A DNA stretch of 32,399 nucleotides, from positions 1 to 32,399 of the IMG/VR virus record IMGVR_UViG_3300029319_000256, one strand, 5' to 3'. The stretch's first letter is position 1. Every line of letters starts with the position of its first letter. Source of the stretch: a virus. Shown here piece after piece: positions 9,960-31,733 of the stretch. The translations under genes were made by a program, and so were the position numbers. Under the pieces are notes generated by a model. That model saw only the letters and a program-made list of their open reading frames with translations. It ran no database searches and was not told where the DNA came from.

Positions 9960-10763
9960 ATGGCAAAAAAGAAACAAACTAAAAAGGTAGAGGTACCTGT
10001 TGTTGAAACACCAATTGTTGAAACACCAAAACCTAAAAAAGATACTTGGGAAATAAAAGATAGAAATTATTATTTAGTTGGCGGTAAAGAACCTTTGTCT
10101 TATCAAATAAGATCTTCTAATATTTATTGGTTTGACGAAGAAAAAGGTTATGAAAGAGAGTTAAAATATACTTCTAACCAAAGAACTCCATTTGTTGACG
10201 AAATGAAAGGTGAACACAGATTAGAACATATTGTTTTTAGAAGTGGTGCACTGTTCGTTCCTAGAGAAAAAACTGTTTTACAAAAACTACTATCTTTATA
10301 TCACCCACATAGAGACAAAATATTTAAAGAGCATAAACCTGCAAAAATAGCTGAGACACAATTAGATTGGTTAGAATTTGAAGTTGCTGCAATGAACGCG
10401 GCTAATAACCTAGATATTGATATGGCAGAAGCTGTTATGCGTGTAGAATTAGGTTCTGAAGTATCTAAGATGAGTTCTAAGGAACTTAAACGTGATTTAC
10501 TACTATTTGCTAAGAAAAAGCCTAAACTATTCTTAGAATTAGTTACTGATGAAAACGTGCAGCTTAGAAACTTTGGTATTAGAGCTACAGAAAGTAATAT
10601 AATTAATCTATCACAAGATCAAAGAACATTTACTTGGACTTCTACTGGTAGAAAATTATTTACAGTTCCTTTTGATGAGCATCCATATTCAGCATTAGCT
10701 GCTTGGTTTAGAACTGACGAAGGGATGGAAATATACAACAATATAGAGAAAAGATTAAAATAA
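9960..10763 (+). CDS. Conserved phage structural protein, helical C-terminus
   Basis: A 267-aa protein between the coat gene and the ring proteins. The first 28 residues are Lys/Val/Pro/Thr-rich with a VETP repeat and look disordered. The next part includes YELKYTSNQRTPFVDEM-like beta segments and FRSGALFVPREKTVLQKLLSLYHPH. The C-terminal third (about 175-267) is helical with SKELKRDLLLFAKKKPKLFLELV then a small beta hairpin (TFTWTSTGRKLFTVP) and a final helix. A similar winged-helix-like tail (KxFLELLxDxxxxxRxxIxxA...) is found in conserved proteins of several large phages. The exact role is unknown; a head-completion or structural role is inferred from position. Confidence 0.5.
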   Translation: MAKKKQTKKVEVPVVETPIVETPKPKKDTWEIKDRNYYLVGGKEPLSYQIRSSNIYWFDEEKGYERELKYTSNQRTPFVDEMKGEHRLEHIVFRSGALFVPREKTVLQKLLSLYHPHRDKIFKEHKPAKIAETQLDWLEFEVAAMNAANNLDIDMAEAVMRVELGSEVSKMSSKELKRDLLLFAKKKPKLFLELVTDENVQLRNFGIRATESNIINLSQDQRTFTWTSTGRKLFTVPFDEHPYSALAAWFRTDEGMEIYNNIEKRLK

Positions 10764-22346: not shown

Positions 22347-25300
22347 ATGAATAAAGAGCAGTTAAAAAAAGTTGTTAAAAAAATGATGGCAGCAGGCGAA
22401 CCTGATGCTAAGATAAAGCGTTTTATTAAAAGCTCTGCTTTTAAACAACGTGTAGACGGAATTAGTGGGGCAGATGTGTCTCCAACATATTCTAGCGAAA
22501 GAGATAACTTTGCTGCTAATGAAGAATATAATTACTACGAACAAAAAGAAAAAGAAAGAGATGCGATACGAGAAAATTATCCACAAACTTTAGGTAATGT
22601 TATTACTTTTGGCGTAGGTAGTAGTGAAATGGTTGGTAGTATATACAAAAAAGCAAAAGATGTTGTTGGGTCTAAAAGTGTTAGTGGTGCAATGACTTCA
22701 TTGAAAAAAGACAATGAATATCTTGACAGAAAAAGAAACCAAGATACCTTTAAACTTGTTAACAAGCTTGACGATGGAGAAATTACTCAAGAGCAATATG
22801 ACTTAGAGATAGAAAAAATAAATTATATTTACGACAATGCTACTGGACCTAGAGATCATTATCATTGGTTACAAAAAGCAAACAATTTATTTAATACAGA
22901 AATAAGTGATGAAACAAAAAAAGTTAGAGATGATGCGTTAAACGCAAGCGATAAAGAATATAAGCAGAAAAATAAAGAATCGTTTGCCTCTGCCGATACT
23001 AATAAAGATGGAGACATAGATGAACAAGAGCAGTTTTATTATAACGCTAGAGAAGAAGCTACAGTTTTTCTTAATGAAGGTATAGATAGTTATTTAAAAA
23101 GAGATATTGATGCTGAGATCGAGGCTGAATCTAAAAAACGATTAATGGATCCAACGGGTTATCTTGAAACTAGAAAACCACTATATGAAACGGATGCTAC
23201 TTCTACTTATATAGATCCAATGTATAGTGATGAAGAAGATTATGAAGAAGAGGAATATGAAGAGGAAGAGCCTATAATAAATATTGACAGTAATAGTATT
23301 TCTCCAGTTTTAACTCAGCTGTTAATACAAAAATATGCTGGTGAAAACGGAGTAAGCATGAAAGACGCTTACAACACTTATGTAGAAGCGGGTGAAGAAG
23401 ATTACGAAGGAGAAGATCCTTTTGCAAGTGTTAGGCATCTTATGACTGACACAAGTGGTAACTCACCTTCTGGAGATGGAGCTCTTATAGATTATTTAAA
23501 CGATATAAAATTAAATGATCCTGAATTTTTTAAACGTTTTAATGAGGCTTATATATCTTCTTCTTCAGACAATTATGCTAGACAAGAGATGTCACAGAAA
23601 CTTGGTATTGAATTAACTGAGAAGGCTGGATTTTTTCTTGGAGAGGGTACAACGACTTTATTTGGAGATCCAGATGAAGTAAAAGATACCGAGAAAAAAA
23701 TTAGAGAGTTTGAAAGAGATCAAGAAAAAGCAGAGGCAGAAACTAGTGAAATAAATGAAATGCTTGAATCTTCTATTGAAACTACAAACAGTTTGCTTGA
23801 AGATTTAGAAAACACAACAGAAGGTACTGTCACTGTTAATGGTAAGGTGTTAGAAGACGAAAATGGAAACGAAATTATGTTTCCTAACAACGCGAGAATA
23901 CAAAACCTTTTAGACGAAAACGAAAAAATATTAAAAGGTAAATACAAAACTCAAGAAGAGGTTGACGAGGCCAATAAAAAAATAAATGAAAACAATGCTG
24001 AGGTTGATAATATATTATCTAGTTATAAAAACAAAGTAGAAAACTACAATACCAGTAGAGAAACTTCTTTAAAGTTATCTAACACATTAAGAAAAAATAC
24101 AGAAGAACAGCTTTCTGCTGCAAGAAACTGGAATGATTATAAAGCCATATATGAAATGCAGGATCAAAGGTACACTACTTTTGGACAATTTGGTGCCGCA
24201 ACTACAGGATCGGTTTTAAATTTAGTTTCTGCTGCTGACGAAATTATTGTTGGCGGTAACCATGACATACTACAGGCTGCTGGTATCGTAGAGGGTCCTT
24301 ATGATCCATGGGTTGGTAGACAGTGGGTAGACCAATACAGAGATAAGTTTAGAAACATGGCTGATCCTGGCACTAATTATTATAGTTACAAAACAGGTGA
24401 TTTTAATAGTTTCGCGTTTGAACGTAGTAATAGGACAATGAGAATGATAGGTGACATGGTACCTATGTTAGCAGCTACATATCTTAGTGGAGGTTCTGCT
24501 ACACCTACGCTTATGGGTATGACAATACCAACTGTGGCCGTAATAGGTACACAATCAATAGGCGGTGATTTAGAAAGAACTAGATTAGAAATGAAAAATA
24601 ATCCACTTGTTCATTACGCTGGATGGCAAAGATATACCTCTGCTATTGTACATGGAGCTACAGAAATACTTTCAGAAAGATTACTTGTTGGTCAAGTAGG
24701 TAGAGTAGCTGATAATTTAATGGTAGATGATTTTGCTAAAGAAGGTGTAAAGTCTTGGGTAAGAAGTACTTTAAACTTAGGTACTAGAGGGGTATTGGAT
24801 GCTGTTCAAGAGGGTTTTGGTGAAGGTGTAAACACTTACACTCAAAACTTAAGTGATAAGTGGTTGCTAGGTAAAGACGTAGATTTAATGGACGGTGTAA
24901 GCGAATCTTTTATAGATGGTTTTTTAGTTTCCGGTGCTATAACTACACCAATGTTACTTAAAAACACTACTAATCACTTAATACCTAATACGTTACAAAA
25001 CAAATTAAATGATAATACCACGGAGTTATTACAGTTAGAAAAAGAACTTTTAGATAATAGATATAAATATAACGAAGATGGTAGTGTAAAACAAAATGTA
25101 AAGTCAACTTTAAGCTCAGAAAGGATAGCGCAAATAGAATCTAGAATGAACGAGCTTGTAAATGAAAACACAGATCTTTTTGAAACTCAACTCAAAGGAA
25201 GTGTTGGCATGACTCAGGCAGAAAAGAGAGAGCTGTTAAACATTAGAACTCAACAACATAGGTTAAAATCAGAAGCAAACACTATAAACAAAGAAACTGG

Positions 25301-28300
25301 TTATACTAAAAAAGAAAAGAAAGAAAAACTAGATGAAATAAAATATAGATACAGTAAGTTAGAAAAGCAAAAAAATGATATATTACAATCTGACAAACGT
25401 ACTGATGAGGAAAAAATAGCTGATTACGAAAAATACAAACTAAGTGTAAAAAATAAAATAGATAGTTATAGAAATAGAAAAGACCGAGAAAGAGATGTAG
25501 AGAGTATAGAATTTGAAACCACAGAAGCGGTTGAGGAATATATGAACGAGCAAAATCTTTATGAAGACGCTTATATTCAAGCTGAAGTTGATGCTGCAAA
25601 ACGCCAGTTGCAACAAAACAAAGATTTTCGTAGCAGTGATACACAGACTAGACAGCACTCTGAACTTTCTCCAGAAAGAAGAGCTCAGTTAGAAAATATA
25701 GTAAGACAAGGAGAATCTATATTAGAAAATAATTTAAAACAATCTAAAGAAGGTGCTGGACAATTTGGTTTTATACACACAAAACAAAATGGTGATTTAG
25801 TATTTGGTATTAACAAACAGAGTAGTTTATCTGCAACAGGTAGGGTAACAACCGCTGCTCATGAATTTTTACACAGTGTTTTATTTAAAACAATAGGTGG
25901 TGATACTAAAATACAAAACGCGTTAGGAAACGCTCTGCAAGAATATGTAGGTGATAAAAAAGGTGTTACTGGTATGGAAACATTTCGTCAAAGAATGGAG
26001 CCGTATATATATAGAGGAAAACAAGGAGAAGTACTAGGTGTAGAACAAAACTATTCAGAAGAACTTATAACTATCATGTCTGAGTCTATATTAGATGGTA
26101 GTTTAAAATTTAACGAAGGGTTTTTTACTAAAGTAGGAGATGGATTAAGAAGATTTTTTCAAAGAAGATTTCCTAATACTTTAGGTAAAATAAAGTTTGA
26201 TAGTGGTAGAGATGTATATAATTTTATAAAAGACTATAATGACAGTATAGAAAAAAATTATACTAACAAAGCTATTGAAGATGTAATGGTCAGAGGTGCC
26301 GATGGTAAACTAATACCAGGTGTTGATCCTTTGTTAAAGCAAAAGTCTGGTTACACTTACTCAAGAGCCAACCAGTTAGATATGATGCTTAACAAGTATG
26401 GCGATAAAATTAGTTTAGTACAAAATGCTATAGCACAAAATGAAAATGGTGATTTAGTTGAAGACCTACAACAGTCTGAGCTAGGCCAAGGTATGGGTGG
26501 TATAATAGAGAGTATAACTAAAAGACTTTATGATGGTATACCTAAATCAGAGGTAAACAAAATAGATCTTACTAGAAAAGATTACAAAGACGCTTTGTTA
26601 ACCGAAGCTGTAGAAATGATAACCAAAGAGTACGATCCTGCTAAACAAAAACTTGATAAATTTGTGAGTAGTAGATTAAACCTTAGAGCAAACGATCTAG
26701 CGCAAAGACTAGGTGTTCCACAAGAGTTTACTACAGAACTAGGTGCTGCTAAAGACGTAACAACAGCAGAAGATAAAGTGCAGCAAGAAACTATTGATAC
26801 TAAAAAACTAGAAGACAGATTAACTAAAGTAGACCCTGAACTTAAAAAAGAACTAGCTGTTATAAAAAATAATATTATAAAACAAATAGAAGCTAACCCT
26901 AATTTATACAAAGATAAAAACTACAAGTCTTTAAAAAATTTAGTTAGCAATGAAGTTCAAAGAATGTTTGGTATAGCCCCTAAAGTAGGTAACTTAACTA
27001 AGGGTGATGTTAGAAACGCTCAAATGTTTATTAATAAACATGCTGATGCTTTGGTCGCTATGCTTCCTCAAGGCTTTACTTCAGATCAAACTTCTACTGG
27101 TGTACAAAATGTTTTATTAAAAGAATTTTATAACAAACGTTCTGTAAGAGCTAAGACAGGACCAGGTTTACAAGTACAAGTTAAAAAACCTAATTTAAAC
27201 GTTAACGATTTTACTAGCGTGTTTGGTATAACAGAAAGAGGTAAACCTAATCTTTATAAAAAAGAAAGTAACACTAGCGCTAGAATAAAAGCTTTAGTTG
27301 AGCAAACAGGTAAGACTATAACTAACCAAACTATTAGAGAACACTTACAAGAAACTAATCAACCTGTAGATTTAATAGCAAGACTAGGAGACGGTAAAAG
27401 TAAATTCATGTTTTCAAAAGGTAAGGCTTTAAACGAAATGTTACAGAAAGACGGTGCTAAAGCTGCTGGTGTAATAGAAAGTTTATTTGATCTTACTAAC
27501 AACGATATACATTATTACGGTGGTAACATGACTGCTTTAGCTAATAATCAGTTGGCTGGGTTGTTGCCTCAAAACGAAATAAATAAAATAGCTAAAGACT
27601 TACAATCTTTATACGATTTAACAGTACCTAGTTATTTAGAAAGCTCTAACTTGTTTACGTCACCTACGCCACTAGGTTCGTTTGTAATAGATAAATATTT
27701 ACAATTAAACATTGAAGGTAGAGAGGGTTATGCTAGCTTGTTGAGTTTAACTGGTGAAAACTTTGTAGCGTTAAAAGGAAATAAAACAGCTCAAGAGTCG
27801 GCTAGAGCATCTATTAAATCTCTAGCTACTGAATTAGATAGAATACATGGTAAGGGTTTTGCGTTAAGAACTTTATATAGAACTATATCTGCTCCTTCAA
27901 AAATACAAGATGGAGAGTTTATACCTGTTGAACCTGGCGGTAATAAATTAAAGAAAAATCCTAATTGGAACCCAAGAAAAAAAGATGGAAAGCCTCAAGA
28001 CAATAGGTTAGGTTTAGCTACAAATGCAGTAGATGCTGCGTTATTGTTAGGGGCAGAGTTAGACGCCAATGGAAAACCTATAGGTTTACCAGAGTCTCCA
28101 AAAGGCACTAGTGATTACATGAAGGGTAGTTTAAATAGAATACCAGAAGCAAGTAAAAGACCTGGGTTTATAGAACGTCAACAACAAAATAACCAAGACA
28201 TAAGAAAAGTTATGGATGTTGTTAGAGATCTTTATCAAAATAAATTTATAAATGGTAACCAGGTTGTTTCTTTAATGGCAAACTTTAATGCTAACCAAGA

Positions 28301-31300
28301 AGGTATTACGAGAGCCTCTGCTATACTAGATTTTATTCCTGTAGATGATATAAACTACTCAAACAATAAGTTAAGGTTAGAGCACATGACACCTGCTTTA
28401 ACTACAAATTTATATGCTTTAAAATATATATTTGCAGATAAGACAACTTCTGAAGCAGCTAGAAAAGATTACAACGATATTATGGATAATTATCGTTTAG
28501 CTTATTTACCTGATGTTTATGATAAAATGGTAAACAAGTTTTACAAATCAACAATGCCTTTTTATTGGACTCCTGACGCTAGTGCTTTGTTAAGGTACTA
28601 TAATGCTGAGATGGCTGGTACTTTTGATTTACAAATGGAACAGTTGTCTACAGGAATAATTGTAGGACCAGAGTTAGCTACAGATAAAAAATTAATCAAG
28701 CAAGTTGAGAAAGGAAAACTAAATGCTATTAGCAAGTTATTAAACACTACTTTAACACAAGCCGCTTTAGATAAAGCAGGTATAGATTTAAATGAAGGTG
28801 CTAGAACAGCTGGGAAAGTATTTATGAATTCTAGAGCTATTAATGAGTCTACACCAAGTAGAGGTATGTCTGCTTTTGATTTTGACGAGACGTTAATTGA
28901 CAAAGGTGATAATACTATTATAGCTACCAAAGGTGACGATGTAGTAACTATAACATCTGGACAGTGGCCTTTACAAGGTCCTAAATATGCTGAGTTAGGT
29001 TATGAGTTTGATTTCAGTGACTTTATAAATGTTAGAGGTGGTGTTGAGGGCCCTCTAATGCAGAAGTTTAGAAACAGAATACAAAAGTATGGTATAGAAA
29101 ATAACTATATACTTACAGCTAGACCAGCAGAAGCAGCACCAGCAATTAAGGCTTGGTTAAAAACCCAAGGTATAGACATGCCTATAGAAAATATAACTGG
29201 TTTAGGTAATAGTACTGGTGAAGCAAAAGCTATGTGGATAGCTAATAAATTTGCAGAGGGTTACAACGATATATATTTTGTGGACGATGCCTTACCTAAT
29301 GTTGAAGCTGTTGCAGATATGATAGATCAGTTAGACATTAAAGGTAAGTCTGTTCAAGCTAAATTTAAGTTTAGTAGACAACTTAATCCAGAGATAAACA
29401 AAATAATAGAATCTACTAGACAGCAAAGTTTAGATTTGAATAGAATAATAGAGCAAACAAAAGGTGTTAAAGCAGAAGCTAGATATTCTGATGCTCAAGC
29501 TAGAATAAGAGGTAGCCAAAAAGATAGGTTTAGTATGTTTAAATTCTTTGTACCGCCTTCTGCAGAAGACTTTAAAGGTTTACTATATAGATTACTTTCA
29601 CCTGGTAAGTTAGGAGAACAACAAATGGCGTTTTTTAAGAAAGCACTATTTGATCCTTTTGCAAAAGGGTACACTTCTTTAAATAAAGCTAAACAAAACT
29701 TAGACGCTGGTTATAGAAATATATTAAAAGTTTTTCCTAGTGTAAAAAAATCTTTATCACAAACAGTCGAGGATACTAATTTTACTAATGATCAAGCTGT
29801 AAGAGTTTATTTATGGGATAAAAACAATGTAGAGGTACCCGGTTTATCTAAAAGAGATCAACAAACTTTAGTTAATCACGTTAAGAGTAATACTGATTTA
29901 TTATCTTTTGCCCAATCATTAGAAGGTTTGGTTAACTTAGATACTGGTTATCTAATACCTAATGAATATTGGTTAGTTGAAAGTACTAGCAGTGATATAC
30001 AAACTATAAACGCAGAGCTTAGTAGAGCAGACCACTTGTCAGAGTTTGTAAACAATAGAAAAGAAATGTTTGGTGAGTGGAAAGGACAAAGTTTAGATGG
30101 TGACATCATGAATAAACTTCAAGCAATATACGGTAATAATTATAGAGACGCTTTAGAAGATATACTTTGGCGTATGGAGTTTGGAACAAAGAGGGAAAAA
30201 GGAACTAATAAATTAGTAAATAAATTTAACAATTGGGCTAACCAATCAGTTGGTGCTATAATGTTCTTTAATATGAGATCTGCGTTGTTACAGACTATAT
30301 CTTCTGTTAACTTTATAAACTGGTCTGACAATAATCCGTTAAAAGCAGCGGCTGCATTTGCTAACCAAAAACAATTCTGGAAAGACTTCGGTATGATATT
30401 TAATTCTGACATGTTAAAGCAAAGGCGTGCTGGTAACCAAAGAGGTATCAATGAAGCTGAACTTGCTCAAGCAATTGCTGGTTCTAAAAACAAAGCTAAA
30501 GCAGCTTTAAACTGGTTGTTAACAAAAGGATTTTTACCTACACAAATAGCAGATAGTTTTGCTATTGCTTCTGGTGGCGCTACGTTTTATAGAAACAGAG
30601 TTAAATCATATTTAAAACAAGGATTAACACAACAGCAAGCAGAGTCACAAGCTTTTCAAGATTTCCAAGAAGTAACAGAGGAATCACAGCAGTCTTCAAG
30701 ACCTGATTTAATATCACAACAACAAGCTTCGCCACTAGGTAGATATATACTGGCTTTTAAAAACACACCTATGCAGTATGCTAGACTTATGAAAAAAGCC
30801 GTGTTAGATTTAGCTAACAATAGAGGTGATTTTAAAACTAACGTTAGTAAGATTATATATTATGGTATGGTTCAAAACTTAATATTTAACGGACTACAAG
30901 CTGCGTTAGGCGCTTTGATAGGTGATGACGACGAAGACAAAGACACTGAAACAAACAAAAGGATTATCAACGGTATGATTGATTCTGTTCTTGGTGGATT
31001 AGGATTTGGTGGTAATGTTATTATGACTGTAAAAAACTCTTTATTAGAATACTTAAAACAAAGAGAAAGAGGTTGGAACGCAGATCATACTTATACTATT
31101 TTGAAAATAATAGGTTTGTCTCCTACAATAGGTAGTAAACTAAGAAAAATATATTCAGGTATACAAACAGAAAAATTTAATAGCGAAGTAATAAATGAAA
31201 TGAGTTACTTTGACATTGACAACCCTGTTTACGAGGCTATAGCTAATGTTATATCTGGTGGTACTAATATACCTTTAGACAGACTTGTTAAAAAAGTAAA

Positions 31301-31733
31301 CAATGTTGATGCTGCTCTTACAGAAGAAATATCTACTATAGAAAGACTTGCCTTGTTAATGGGTTGGAATACTTGGGACTTAGGTATTGAAGACCAAGAT
31401 ATAATAGCTGTTGAAGAAGAAATAAAAGAAAGAAAAGACAAAGAGAGAAAAGAGAAAAACGAAAAGAAAAAAATAGAAAAGAAACAGCAACAACAAAAAG
31501 AAAACGAAGTAAAAGAAAAAGAAAATAAAGAAAAAGATGATGGTCGTTGTATAGCTATAACTAGTAGCGGTAGCAGATGTAAAAGAGAGGCTATATCAGA
31601 TGGTTATTGTACTGTGCACGCTAAAGTAGAGCAAGGAACTAAAGAGGTTCAGTGTAGTAAAATTAAATCTAATGGCGAAAGATGTAAGATGAAAACTATG
31701 GCTAAAAGTGGATTATGTTTTTATCATGATTAA
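22347..31733 (+). CDS. Giant polyvalent internal virion / DNA ejection protein
   Basis: A single uninterrupted 3128-aa frame. Visible parts in order: EF-hand loop DTNKDGDIDEQE (217-228); acidic tract (295-308); coiled coil (about 450-590); hydrophobic stretch from M700 (MIGDMVPMLAATYLSGGSAT), a likely membrane insert; long charged helices (960-1110); HEFLH zincin centre (1172-1176) with E1238/E1239 as candidate third ligand; a segment near 1425-1455 faintly like sigma region 2; HAD centre with D2178/D2180, T2257, K2294, D2313/D2314; a conserved helical block (about 2625-2870) with MFFNMRSALLQTISSVNFIN and ILAFKNTPMQYARLMKKA; Lys/Glu/Gln linker (3022-3065); two Cys3His motifs (3068-3091, 3103-3127). 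It sits in the gp16 slot of an ejection cassette. A polyvalent protein injected with DNA is the inference; individual activities are untested. Confidence 0.75.
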   Translation: MNKEQLKKVVKKMMAAGEPDAKIKRFIKSSAFKQRVDGISGADVSPTYSSERDNFAANEEYNYYEQKEKERDAIRENYPQTLGNVITFGVGSSEMVGSIYKKAKDVVGSKSVSGAMTSLKKDNEYLDRKRNQDTFKLVNKLDDGEITQEQYDLEIEKINYIYDNATGPRDHYHWLQKANNLFNTEISDETKKVRDDALNASDKEYKQKNKESFASADTNKDGDIDEQEQFYYNAREEATVFLNEGIDSYLKRDIDAEIEAESKKRLMDPTGYLETRKPLYETDATSTYIDPMYSDEEDYEEEEYEEEEPIINIDSNSISPVLTQLLIQKYAGENGVSMKDAYNTYVEAGEEDYEGEDPFASVRHLMTDTSGNSPSGDGALIDYLNDIKLNDPEFFKRFNEAYISSSSDNYARQEMSQKLGIELTEKAGFFLGEGTTTLFGDPDEVKDTEKKIREFERDQEKAEAETSEINEMLESSIETTNSLLEDLENTTEGTVTVNGKVLEDENGNEIMFPNNARIQNLLDENEKILKGKYKTQEEVDEANKKINENNAEVDNILSSYKNKVENYNTSRETSLKLSNTLRKNTEEQLSAARNWNDYKAIYEMQDQRYTTFGQFGAATTGSVLNLVSAADEIIVGGNHDILQAAGIVEGPYDPWVGRQWVDQYRDKFRNMADPGTNYYSYKTGDFNSFAFERSNRTMRMIGDMVPMLAATYLSGGSATPTLMGMTIPTVAVIGTQSIGGDLERTRLEMKNNPLVHYAGWQRYTSAIVHGATEILSERLLVGQVGRVADNLMVDDFAKEGVKSWVRSTLNLGTRGVLDAVQEGFGEGVNTYTQNLSDKWLLGKDVDLMDGVSESFIDGFLVSGAITTPMLLKNTTNHLIPNTLQNKLNDNTTELLQLEKELLDNRYKYNEDGSVKQNVKSTLSSERIAQIESRMNELVNENTDLFETQLKGSVGMTQAEKRELLNIRTQQHRLKSEANTINKETGYTKKEKKEKLDEIKYRYSKLEKQKNDILQSDKRTDEEKIADYEKYKLSVKNKIDSYRNRKDRERDVESIEFETTEAVEEYMNEQNLYEDAYIQAEVDAAKRQLQQNKDFRSSDTQTRQHSELSPERRAQLENIVRQGESILENNLKQSKEGAGQFGFIHTKQNGDLVFGINKQSSLSATGRVTTAAHEFLHSVLFKTIGGDTKIQNALGNALQEYVGDKKGVTGMETFRQRMEPYIYRGKQGEVLGVEQNYSEELITIMSESILDGSLKFNEGFFTKVGDGLRRFFQRRFPNTLGKIKFDSGRDVYNFIKDYNDSIEKNYTNKAIEDVMVRGADGKLIPGVDPLLKQKSGYTYSRANQLDMMLNKYGDKISLVQNAIAQNENGDLVEDLQQSELGQGMGGIIESITKRLYDGIPKSEVNKIDLTRKDYKDALLTEAVEMITKEYDPAKQKLDKFVSSRLNLRANDLAQRLGVPQEFTTELGAAKDVTTAEDKVQQETIDTKKLEDRLTKVDPELKKELAVIKNNIIKQIEANPNLYKDKNYKSLKNLVSNEVQRMFGIAPKVGNLTKGDVRNAQMFINKHADALVAMLPQGFTSDQTSTGVQNVLLKEFYNKRSVRAKTGPGLQVQVKKPNLNVNDFTSVFGITERGKPNLYKKESNTSARIKALVEQTGKTITNQTIREHLQETNQPVDLIARLGDGKSKFMFSKGKALNEMLQKDGAKAAGVIESLFDLTNNDIHYYGGNMTALANNQLAGLLPQNEINKIAKDLQSLYDLTVPSYLESSNLFTSPTPLGSFVIDKYLQLNIEGREGYASLLSLTGENFVALKGNKTAQESARASIKSLATELDRIHGKGFALRTLYRTISAPSKIQDGEFIPVEPGGNKLKKNPNWNPRKKDGKPQDNRLGLATNAVDAALLLGAELDANGKPIGLPESPKGTSDYMKGSLNRIPEASKRPGFIERQQQNNQDIRKVMDVVRDLYQNKFINGNQVVSLMANFNANQEGITRASAILDFIPVDDINYSNNKLRLEHMTPALTTNLYALKYIFADKTTSEAARKDYNDIMDNYRLAYLPDVYDKMVNKFYKSTMPFYWTPDASALLRYYNAEMAGTFDLQMEQLSTGIIVGPELATDKKLIKQVEKGKLNAISKLLNTTLTQAALDKAGIDLNEGARTAGKVFMNSRAINESTPSRGMSAFDFDETLIDKGDNTIIATKGDDVVTITSGQWPLQGPKYAELGYEFDFSDFINVRGGVEGPLMQKFRNRIQKYGIENNYILTARPAEAAPAIKAWLKTQGIDMPIENITGLGNSTGEAKAMWIANKFAEGYNDIYFVDDALPNVEAVADMIDQLDIKGKSVQAKFKFSRQLNPEINKIIESTRQQSLDLNRIIEQTKGVKAEARYSDAQARIRGSQKDRFSMFKFFVPPSAEDFKGLLYRLLSPGKLGEQQMAFFKKALFDPFAKGYTSLNKAKQNLDAGYRNILKVFPSVKKSLSQTVEDTNFTNDQAVRVYLWDKNNVEVPGLSKRDQQTLVNHVKSNTDLLSFAQSLEGLVNLDTGYLIPNEYWLVESTSSDIQTINAELSRADHLSEFVNNRKEMFGEWKGQSLDGDIMNKLQAIYGNNYRDALEDILWRMEFGTKREKGTNKLVNKFNNWANQSVGAIMFFNMRSALLQTISSVNFINWSDNNPLKAAAAFANQKQFWKDFGMIFNSDMLKQRRAGNQRGINEAELAQAIAGSKNKAKAALNWLLTKGFLPTQIADSFAIASGGATFYRNRVKSYLKQGLTQQQAESQAFQDFQEVTEESQQSSRPDLISQQQASPLGRYILAFKNTPMQYARLMKKAVLDLANNRGDFKTNVSKIIYYGMVQNLIFNGLQAALGALIGDDDEDKDTETNKRIINGMIDSVLGGLGFGGNVIMTVKNSLLEYLKQRERGWNADHTYTILKIIGLSPTIGSKLRKIYSGIQTEKFNSEVINEMSYFDIDNPVYEAIANVISGGTNIPLDRLVKKVNNVDAALTEEISTIERLALLMGWNTWDLGIEDQDIIAVEEEIKERKDKERKEKNEKKKIEKKQQQQKENEVKEKENKEKDDGRCIAITSSGSRCKREAISDGYCTVHAKVEQGTKEVQCSKIKSNGERCKMKTMAKSGLCFYHD

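Follow-up and report, generated by a model that had tools for sequence, protein, structure and literature searches.

In IMG/VR virus record IMGVR_UViG_3300029319_000256 (positions 1 to 32,399, the whole 32,399-nucleotide stretch being called the window here), the last large gene of the virion module encodes a giant protein that carries a HAD phosphatase domain with a complete active site. We hold with high confidence, from the invariance of its predicted catalytic residues among relatives, that this domain is an active phosphatase. The specific reading that we favour, at somewhat short of even confidence, is that it is a catalytically competent end-processing phosphatase, resembling those of polynucleotide kinase-phosphatases (Pnkp) and of the Swiss-army-knife (SAK) HADs, in a giant virion protein that would enter the cell with the phage DNA.

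All the HAD motifs lie inside one uninterrupted open reading frame (ORF) of 3128 amino acids. The four motifs occur in the order described by the first-pass annotation, whose motif positions and residue numbers were exact; the domain extends further than the interval that it gave (28878–29288), as listed here.

22347 to 31733, + strand: giant protein ORF, last large gene of the virion module, at the place where phi40:1 (gp101), elemo (gp18) and MW202828 have their giant or last virion gene
About 28863 to 29360, + strand: HAD phosphatase domain, residues about 2173–2338 (motifs, conservation, AlphaFold model and PDB fold matches)
28875 to 28895, + strand: HAD motif I, FDFDETL, with the predicted nucleophile D2178 and general acid/base D2180 (sequence; invariant in relatives)
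28926 to 28940, + strand: beta-hairpin turn after motif I, the site of a nested P-loop kinase of about 205 amino acids in at least 21 relatives, absent in the window
29106 to 29126, + strand: HAD motif II, YILTARP, with T2257 and the invariant R2259 (sequence; invariant in relatives)
29220 to 29252, + strand: HAD motif III, EAKAMWIANKF, with K2294 (sequence; invariant in relatives)
29274 to 29312, + strand: HAD motif IV, YFVDDALPNVEAV, with D2313, D2314 and the invariant N2318 (sequence; invariant in relatives)

Related giant proteins, whose loci or contigs are labelled with L-numbers (e.g. L067), were sampled twice. A scan of viral contigs with patterns that included HAD motifs gave 79 loci with the HAD, which lay inside the giant ORF throughout, usually about 660–870 amino acids from the C-terminus at loci whose contig includes the 3' end of the ORF; of the 76 sequences in this first alignment, 74 matched at D2178 and 74 at D2180. 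Both exceptions were nested-kinase forms, and their apparent losses of the motif-I aspartate were rejected: in L077 as an alignment artefact caused by the nested kinase, and in L069 because the contig is truncated before motif I. Since the patterns of the first scan included HAD motifs, a second sample, some of whose contigs overlap the first, was gathered by the C-terminal module of the giant protein alone. Here the HAD was present in 44 of the 55 informative proteins (36 plain, 8 with a kinase) and absent from 11, and DxDxT was kept in every HAD-bearing protein (44/44). The first-pass annotation had named replacement of D2178 or D2180 in the majority of homologues as grounds for abandoning the phosphatase centre; this was looked for and no substitution was found. 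Among 120 distinct HAD cores, from relatives that diverge down to about 40% identity, D2178, D2180, T2257, K2294, D2313 and D2314 were invariant, as was R2259, the invariance of motif I in this set being by selection because the extraction required it. The earlier statements that every catalytic residue is present and that the centre is probably active are therefore well supported, the latter by residue conservation. The ratio of nonsynonymous to synonymous substitution (dN/dS) was 0.06–0.11 for the HAD vs 0.34–0.47 for N-terminal residues 1–1150; by these sequence comparisons the HAD is under strong purifying selection, and no portion of the giant protein is more constrained than the HAD and the C-terminal module. 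Because six residues are invariant in relatives, DxDxT is kept in the C-terminal-module sample, the predicted fold is that of a HAD and its best PDB matches are HAD phosphatases, we conclude that the motif set is not a product of chance.

In seven of these giants (L143, L153, L159, L161, L164, L167 and L169) other sequence fills the HAD slot upstream of the C-terminal module, and the junction motif FNxIIExxTGV ... KGRF.F..PP is mostly retained in them. In L076 a frame change within the HAD (10257–10640), either a sequencing error or real, splits the giant ORF.

An AlphaFold (AF2) model of the HAD built on 65 sequences had a mean predicted local distance difference test (pLDDT) score of 77, with a confident core (above 80 in its C-terminal two thirds) and a disordered tail, and formed an alpha/beta Rossmannoid whose strand ends bear the motifs. 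Foldseek against the PDB returned weak matches, some of them HADs. With VIA-align, 132 PDB chains matched at Z ≥8, HADs on top; the best was Pnkp1 (4xru, Z 11.1, 3.0 Å over 132 residues), followed by the T4 Pnkp phosphatase (5uj0, Z 11.0; 1ltq, Z 10.7). Polynucleotide 3'-phosphatases of the Pnkp type thus come first (Z about 11) for the predicted fold, only slightly above other HADs; since these follow within 1 Z unit, at Z 10.5 and below, the ranking is a lead and not proof of the substrate. Among viral models, the best matches were uncharacterised giant proteins of uncultured viruses and then phage proteins, and the viral fold matches include Pnkp-phosphatase and SAK RNA-repair HADs, with one SAK-named match at 5.5e-4. 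At the sequence level, PHROG 415 ('polynucleotide kinase') was matched by 45 of 65 members (best 2e-8). The window copy itself matched none of the SAK Pfam profiles and had no significant HAD match in Pfam, merely chance families such as F-protein; its NCBIfam HAD-IA match was sub-threshold (1.3e-3).

The second line of evidence comes from the relatives. The P-loop insert breaks into the HAD about 24 residues past the nucleophile in L066, L067, L072, L077 and others, where it replaces the turn of the beta-hairpin (nearest plain forms L126/L154 vs nested form L145); after further scans, the lower bound of 21 relatives is a count of separate cases on the HAD tree. For the nested form, modelled with AF2 at pLDDT 86, the best structural match was the C. 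thermocellum Pnkp kinase (Z 16.8 vs 13.7 for zeta), and Foldseek of this model placed Pnkp1/Rnl/Hen1 first (E 1e-8). A profile alignment at E 7.5e-7 paired the nested kinase with that of T4 Pnkp and lined up the general-base Asp and the LID RNxxR of the two. The P-loop GxGK[SG], the general-base Asp D81 and the LID arginines R174/R178/R181 are invariant among the nested kinases. An intein, considered for L066/L067, was rejected, the insert having a P-loop and being kinase-like. A single clade of kinase-nested forms was also rejected, as the presence or absence of the kinase changes at least 5 times on the HAD tree, with gain and loss indistinguishable because the root is uncertain; the large clade with the closest relatives of the window (67 rows) has no kinase. 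In the open-access literature searched, no HAD cap with a P-loop kinase inside it was described.

Two further features of these loci were observed. The P-loop reads GSGKG, adenylate-kinase-like, instead of GSGKS in the nested kinases of L083, L085, L086, L087 and L090. A mobile domain of about 110 amino acids, possibly acetyltransferase-like, stands after the HAD in L128 (residues about 2355–2480), nested inside the HAD in L146 (about 1409–1541) and next to a related kinase in gp053 of Agrobacterium phage Atu_ph07 (L178).

The link to the virion comes from Cellulophaga phage phi40:1, in which gp101, the last gene of a syntenic module, carries a structural-protein annotation based on tandem mass spectrometry (MS/MS) proteomics. 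Residues 685–894 of the window giant match gp101 (E 3e-4), and in relatives the match to gp101 spans about 160–560 residues, at up to 2e-18; the giant is therefore homologous to a virion protein, and on these alignments it is probably carried in the virion. For the earlier proposal of a phosphatase delivered by the phage, this homology gives support, while delivery itself we infer.

Among the three substrate classes that had been offered (nucleotides, DNA/RNA ends and a defence signalling molecule), nucleic-acid ends are favoured by the fold ranking and most of all by the polynucleotide-kinase-like domain that relatives carry nested in the HAD. We give such ends about an even chance of being the substrate; nucleotides and signal molecules are less probable. 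An ATP-dependent DNA ligase is encoded in 11 of the 12 contigs of relatives of at least 62.9 kb (and in 0 of 8 shorter ones), which is compatible with DNA end healing. An RNA ligase partner was considered and rejected, the PF09414 matches being weaker readings of the same DNA-ligase ORF.

Besides the closeness of other HADs in the structural ranking, several observations weigh against end processing by a virion protein. Alignment of the HAD core with the T4 Pnkp phosphatase by hhalign gave nothing, and a PDB sequence search with the HAD profile returned no HAD chain, just unrelated weak matches. The window copy has no nested or fused kinase. In the relatives that have one, the Pfam profile Zeta_toxin matches 16/16 nested kinases (best 9e-14), with AAA_33 scoring equally, and a Leu stands where the D-x-x-R of T4 Pnkp has Arg (R38), three residues past the general-base Asp and an expected feature of the kinase. 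The virion protein gp101 carries no HAD motif. In the relatives the ligase has a gene of its own, phages commonly encode DNA ligases, and no ligase was seen in the 32-kb fragment of the window.

The HAD might instead be a nucleotidase or signal phosphatase, which would dephosphorylate mononucleotides or nucleotide second messengers and so blunt a host alarm or feed the nucleotide pool. Its complete HAD active site, the weak matches to nucleotidase-like and HAD-IA profiles and the AphA-type acid phosphatases among the structural matches of the model all agree with such an activity, and signal-degrading enzymes in injected phage proteins have been proposed by others (PMC7824862). However, the top solved structures are Pnkp phosphatases and the nested kinase of the relatives is nearest to polynucleotide kinases, and we regard this alternative as unlikely, at perhaps one chance in four. 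More doubtful is a giant protein made late that acts in the cell during assembly and is not delivered, its HAD working on intracellular nucleic acids or precursors: the very variable N-terminal part of the giant speaks for it, but the homologous and syntenic gp101 is a virion protein by MS/MS and the giant gene sits in the virion module. Slightly less probable again is a cell-wall or sugar-phosphate enzyme, with a zeta-toxin-like nested kinase acting on UDP-N-acetylglucosamine (UDP-GlcNAc) and the HAD using a related sugar phosphate as its substrate while the DNA enters. The Zeta_toxin matches point this way, one UniProt relative bears the name UDP-N-acetylglucosamine kinase, and zeta-like kinases are reported in polyvalent proteins (PMC5512222); yet AAA_33 scores as well as Zeta_toxin, structure ranks polynucleotide kinases over zeta, and a kinase paired with a Pnkp-like HAD is better explained by end healing. 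Finally, a catalytically dead HAD fold with a structural or regulatory role is very improbable in view of an active site that is complete and invariant over 120 divergent relatives.

Under the favoured reading of an end-processing phosphatase, the giant virion protein would enter the cell together with the phage DNA. By analogy with the HAD superfamily, D2178 would attack the substrate phosphate with D2180 as general acid/base, T2257, R2259 and K2294 would hold the phosphate, and D2313/D2314 would bind Mg2+. Inside the cell, the HAD would strip 3'-terminal phosphates off nicked or cleaved DNA, or off RNA, for instance tRNA that host defence nucleases have cut; ligation would come next, possibly via the ATP-dependent DNA ligase encoded by near-full-length relatives. 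In sister phages the nested kinase would re-phosphorylate 5'-OH ends too, the window copy being without it. For the window giant we infer activity, substrate, delivery and partner ligase alike.

If this is true, 3'-dephosphorylation, with or without 5'-phosphorylation, would be ready at infection time zero, ahead of phage gene expression. The end-healing enzymes known from phages, e.g. T4 Pnkp, are produced after infection; one carried in the virion would work before phage genes are expressed, while defence nucleases cut DNA or tRNA. Going further, it is conceivable, though we think it rather less likely than the reading for the window alone, that aquatic, probably Bacteroidota podoviruses carry a virion-borne end-healing enzyme in a giant ejected protein, with the HAD as a docking site that has repeatedly gained or lost a polynucleotide kinase. 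With the nested kinase, nature provides a clean experiment on how domains are inserted, and it also gives directly testable substrates. Viral metagenomes hold the HAD family in abundance (more than 100 loci), whereas tblastn against 50,697 phage records (cultured phages) gave no match, so the family is largely unstudied.

Compared with known systems, T4 Pnkp (PseT) and bacterial Pnkp1 of Pnkp1/Rnl/Hen1 share with the window HAD the fold and the motifs DxD, S/T-x-R, K and DD; they are its top structural matches, and the P-loop kinase of its relatives aligns to the T4 kinase. In T4 Pnkp, a 301-aa protein, the kinase stands in tandem ahead of the phosphatase, whereas in the giant family (about 2,500–4,500 aa) the kinase, if present, is nested inside the HAD hairpin; the window copy has no kinase, and its phosphatase has no sequence-level match to that of T4 Pnkp. 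Phage RNA repair is described as including Pnkp-HADs and SAK HADs, the latter a family of phage HAD phosphatases tied to RNA repair that tend to be standalone domains (PMC7824862), unlike the window HAD within its giant protein. Polyvalent proteins of phages and conjugative elements, described as injected (PMC5512222), resemble the window giant in being giant and multidomain, in the virion module, the HExxH motif, the exchangeable enzymatic domains and the N-terminal virion-protein homology; no Pfam match to their named LPD domains was found in the window giant. In the passages of PMC5512222 that were searched we found no mention of a HAD phosphatase or polynucleotide kinase, and neither there nor in the searched passages of the survey PMC7824862 did we find a HAD phosphatase in a polyvalent protein or a HAD with a kinase inside it. 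Flavobacteriia podoviruses have giant or last virion proteins (phi40:1 gp101; Elemovirus gp18) that share the position at the end of the virion genes and a homologous N-terminal segment; the HAD and C-terminal module of the window giant were not found in the cultured phi40:1 and Elemovirus phages.

The window is a linear fragment of 32.4 kb from an uncultured aquatic phage, with a virion module in which terminase, portal, capsid and several structural genes precede the giant gene. Its terminase and portal are nearest to those of a Florida spring podovirus (65% / 53%), with more distant relatives (about 25–47%) in Flavobacterium, Cellulophaga, Maribacter and Tenacibaculum phages, and this relatedness suggests a Bacteroidota host. 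What stays constant in the giant protein among relatives is the HAD and the C-terminal module, the N-terminus being mosaic and very variable; in the window, the HAD is one of many unrelated domains in a polypeptide encoded with the virion genes, and other parts of it are as follows.

24399 to 25028, + strand: N-terminal part, residues 685–894, homologous to phi40:1 gp101, which is annotated as a virion protein by MS/MS
25857 to 25877, + strand: HExxH zincin-type motif AHEFLHS, a candidate metallopeptidase domain (sequence; region aligned in 38–44 relatives)
29544 to 31496, + strand: conserved C-terminal module of the giant protein, residues 2400–3050, downstream of the HAD in relatives
31548 to 31652, + strand: DUF5763 Cys/His motif at the C-terminus, residues 3068–3102 (Pfam match)

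The tripeptide FS[KR] is 2.5x enriched in the giant proteins of related loci (248 vs 98 expected), often at a single site right behind the HAD (AKxxFSK; 29370–29405 in the window), which may be a processing site. The occurrences are not independent, because they fall largely at this one homologous site, and a general linker signal was rejected. At the extreme C-terminus of the giant, 31548–31730 holds a tandem pair of Cys/His repeats, of which DUF5763 matches the first, and close to its N-terminus (22989–23024) lies an EF-hand-like loop, DTNKDGDIDE, with a weak Pfam match (E 0.26).
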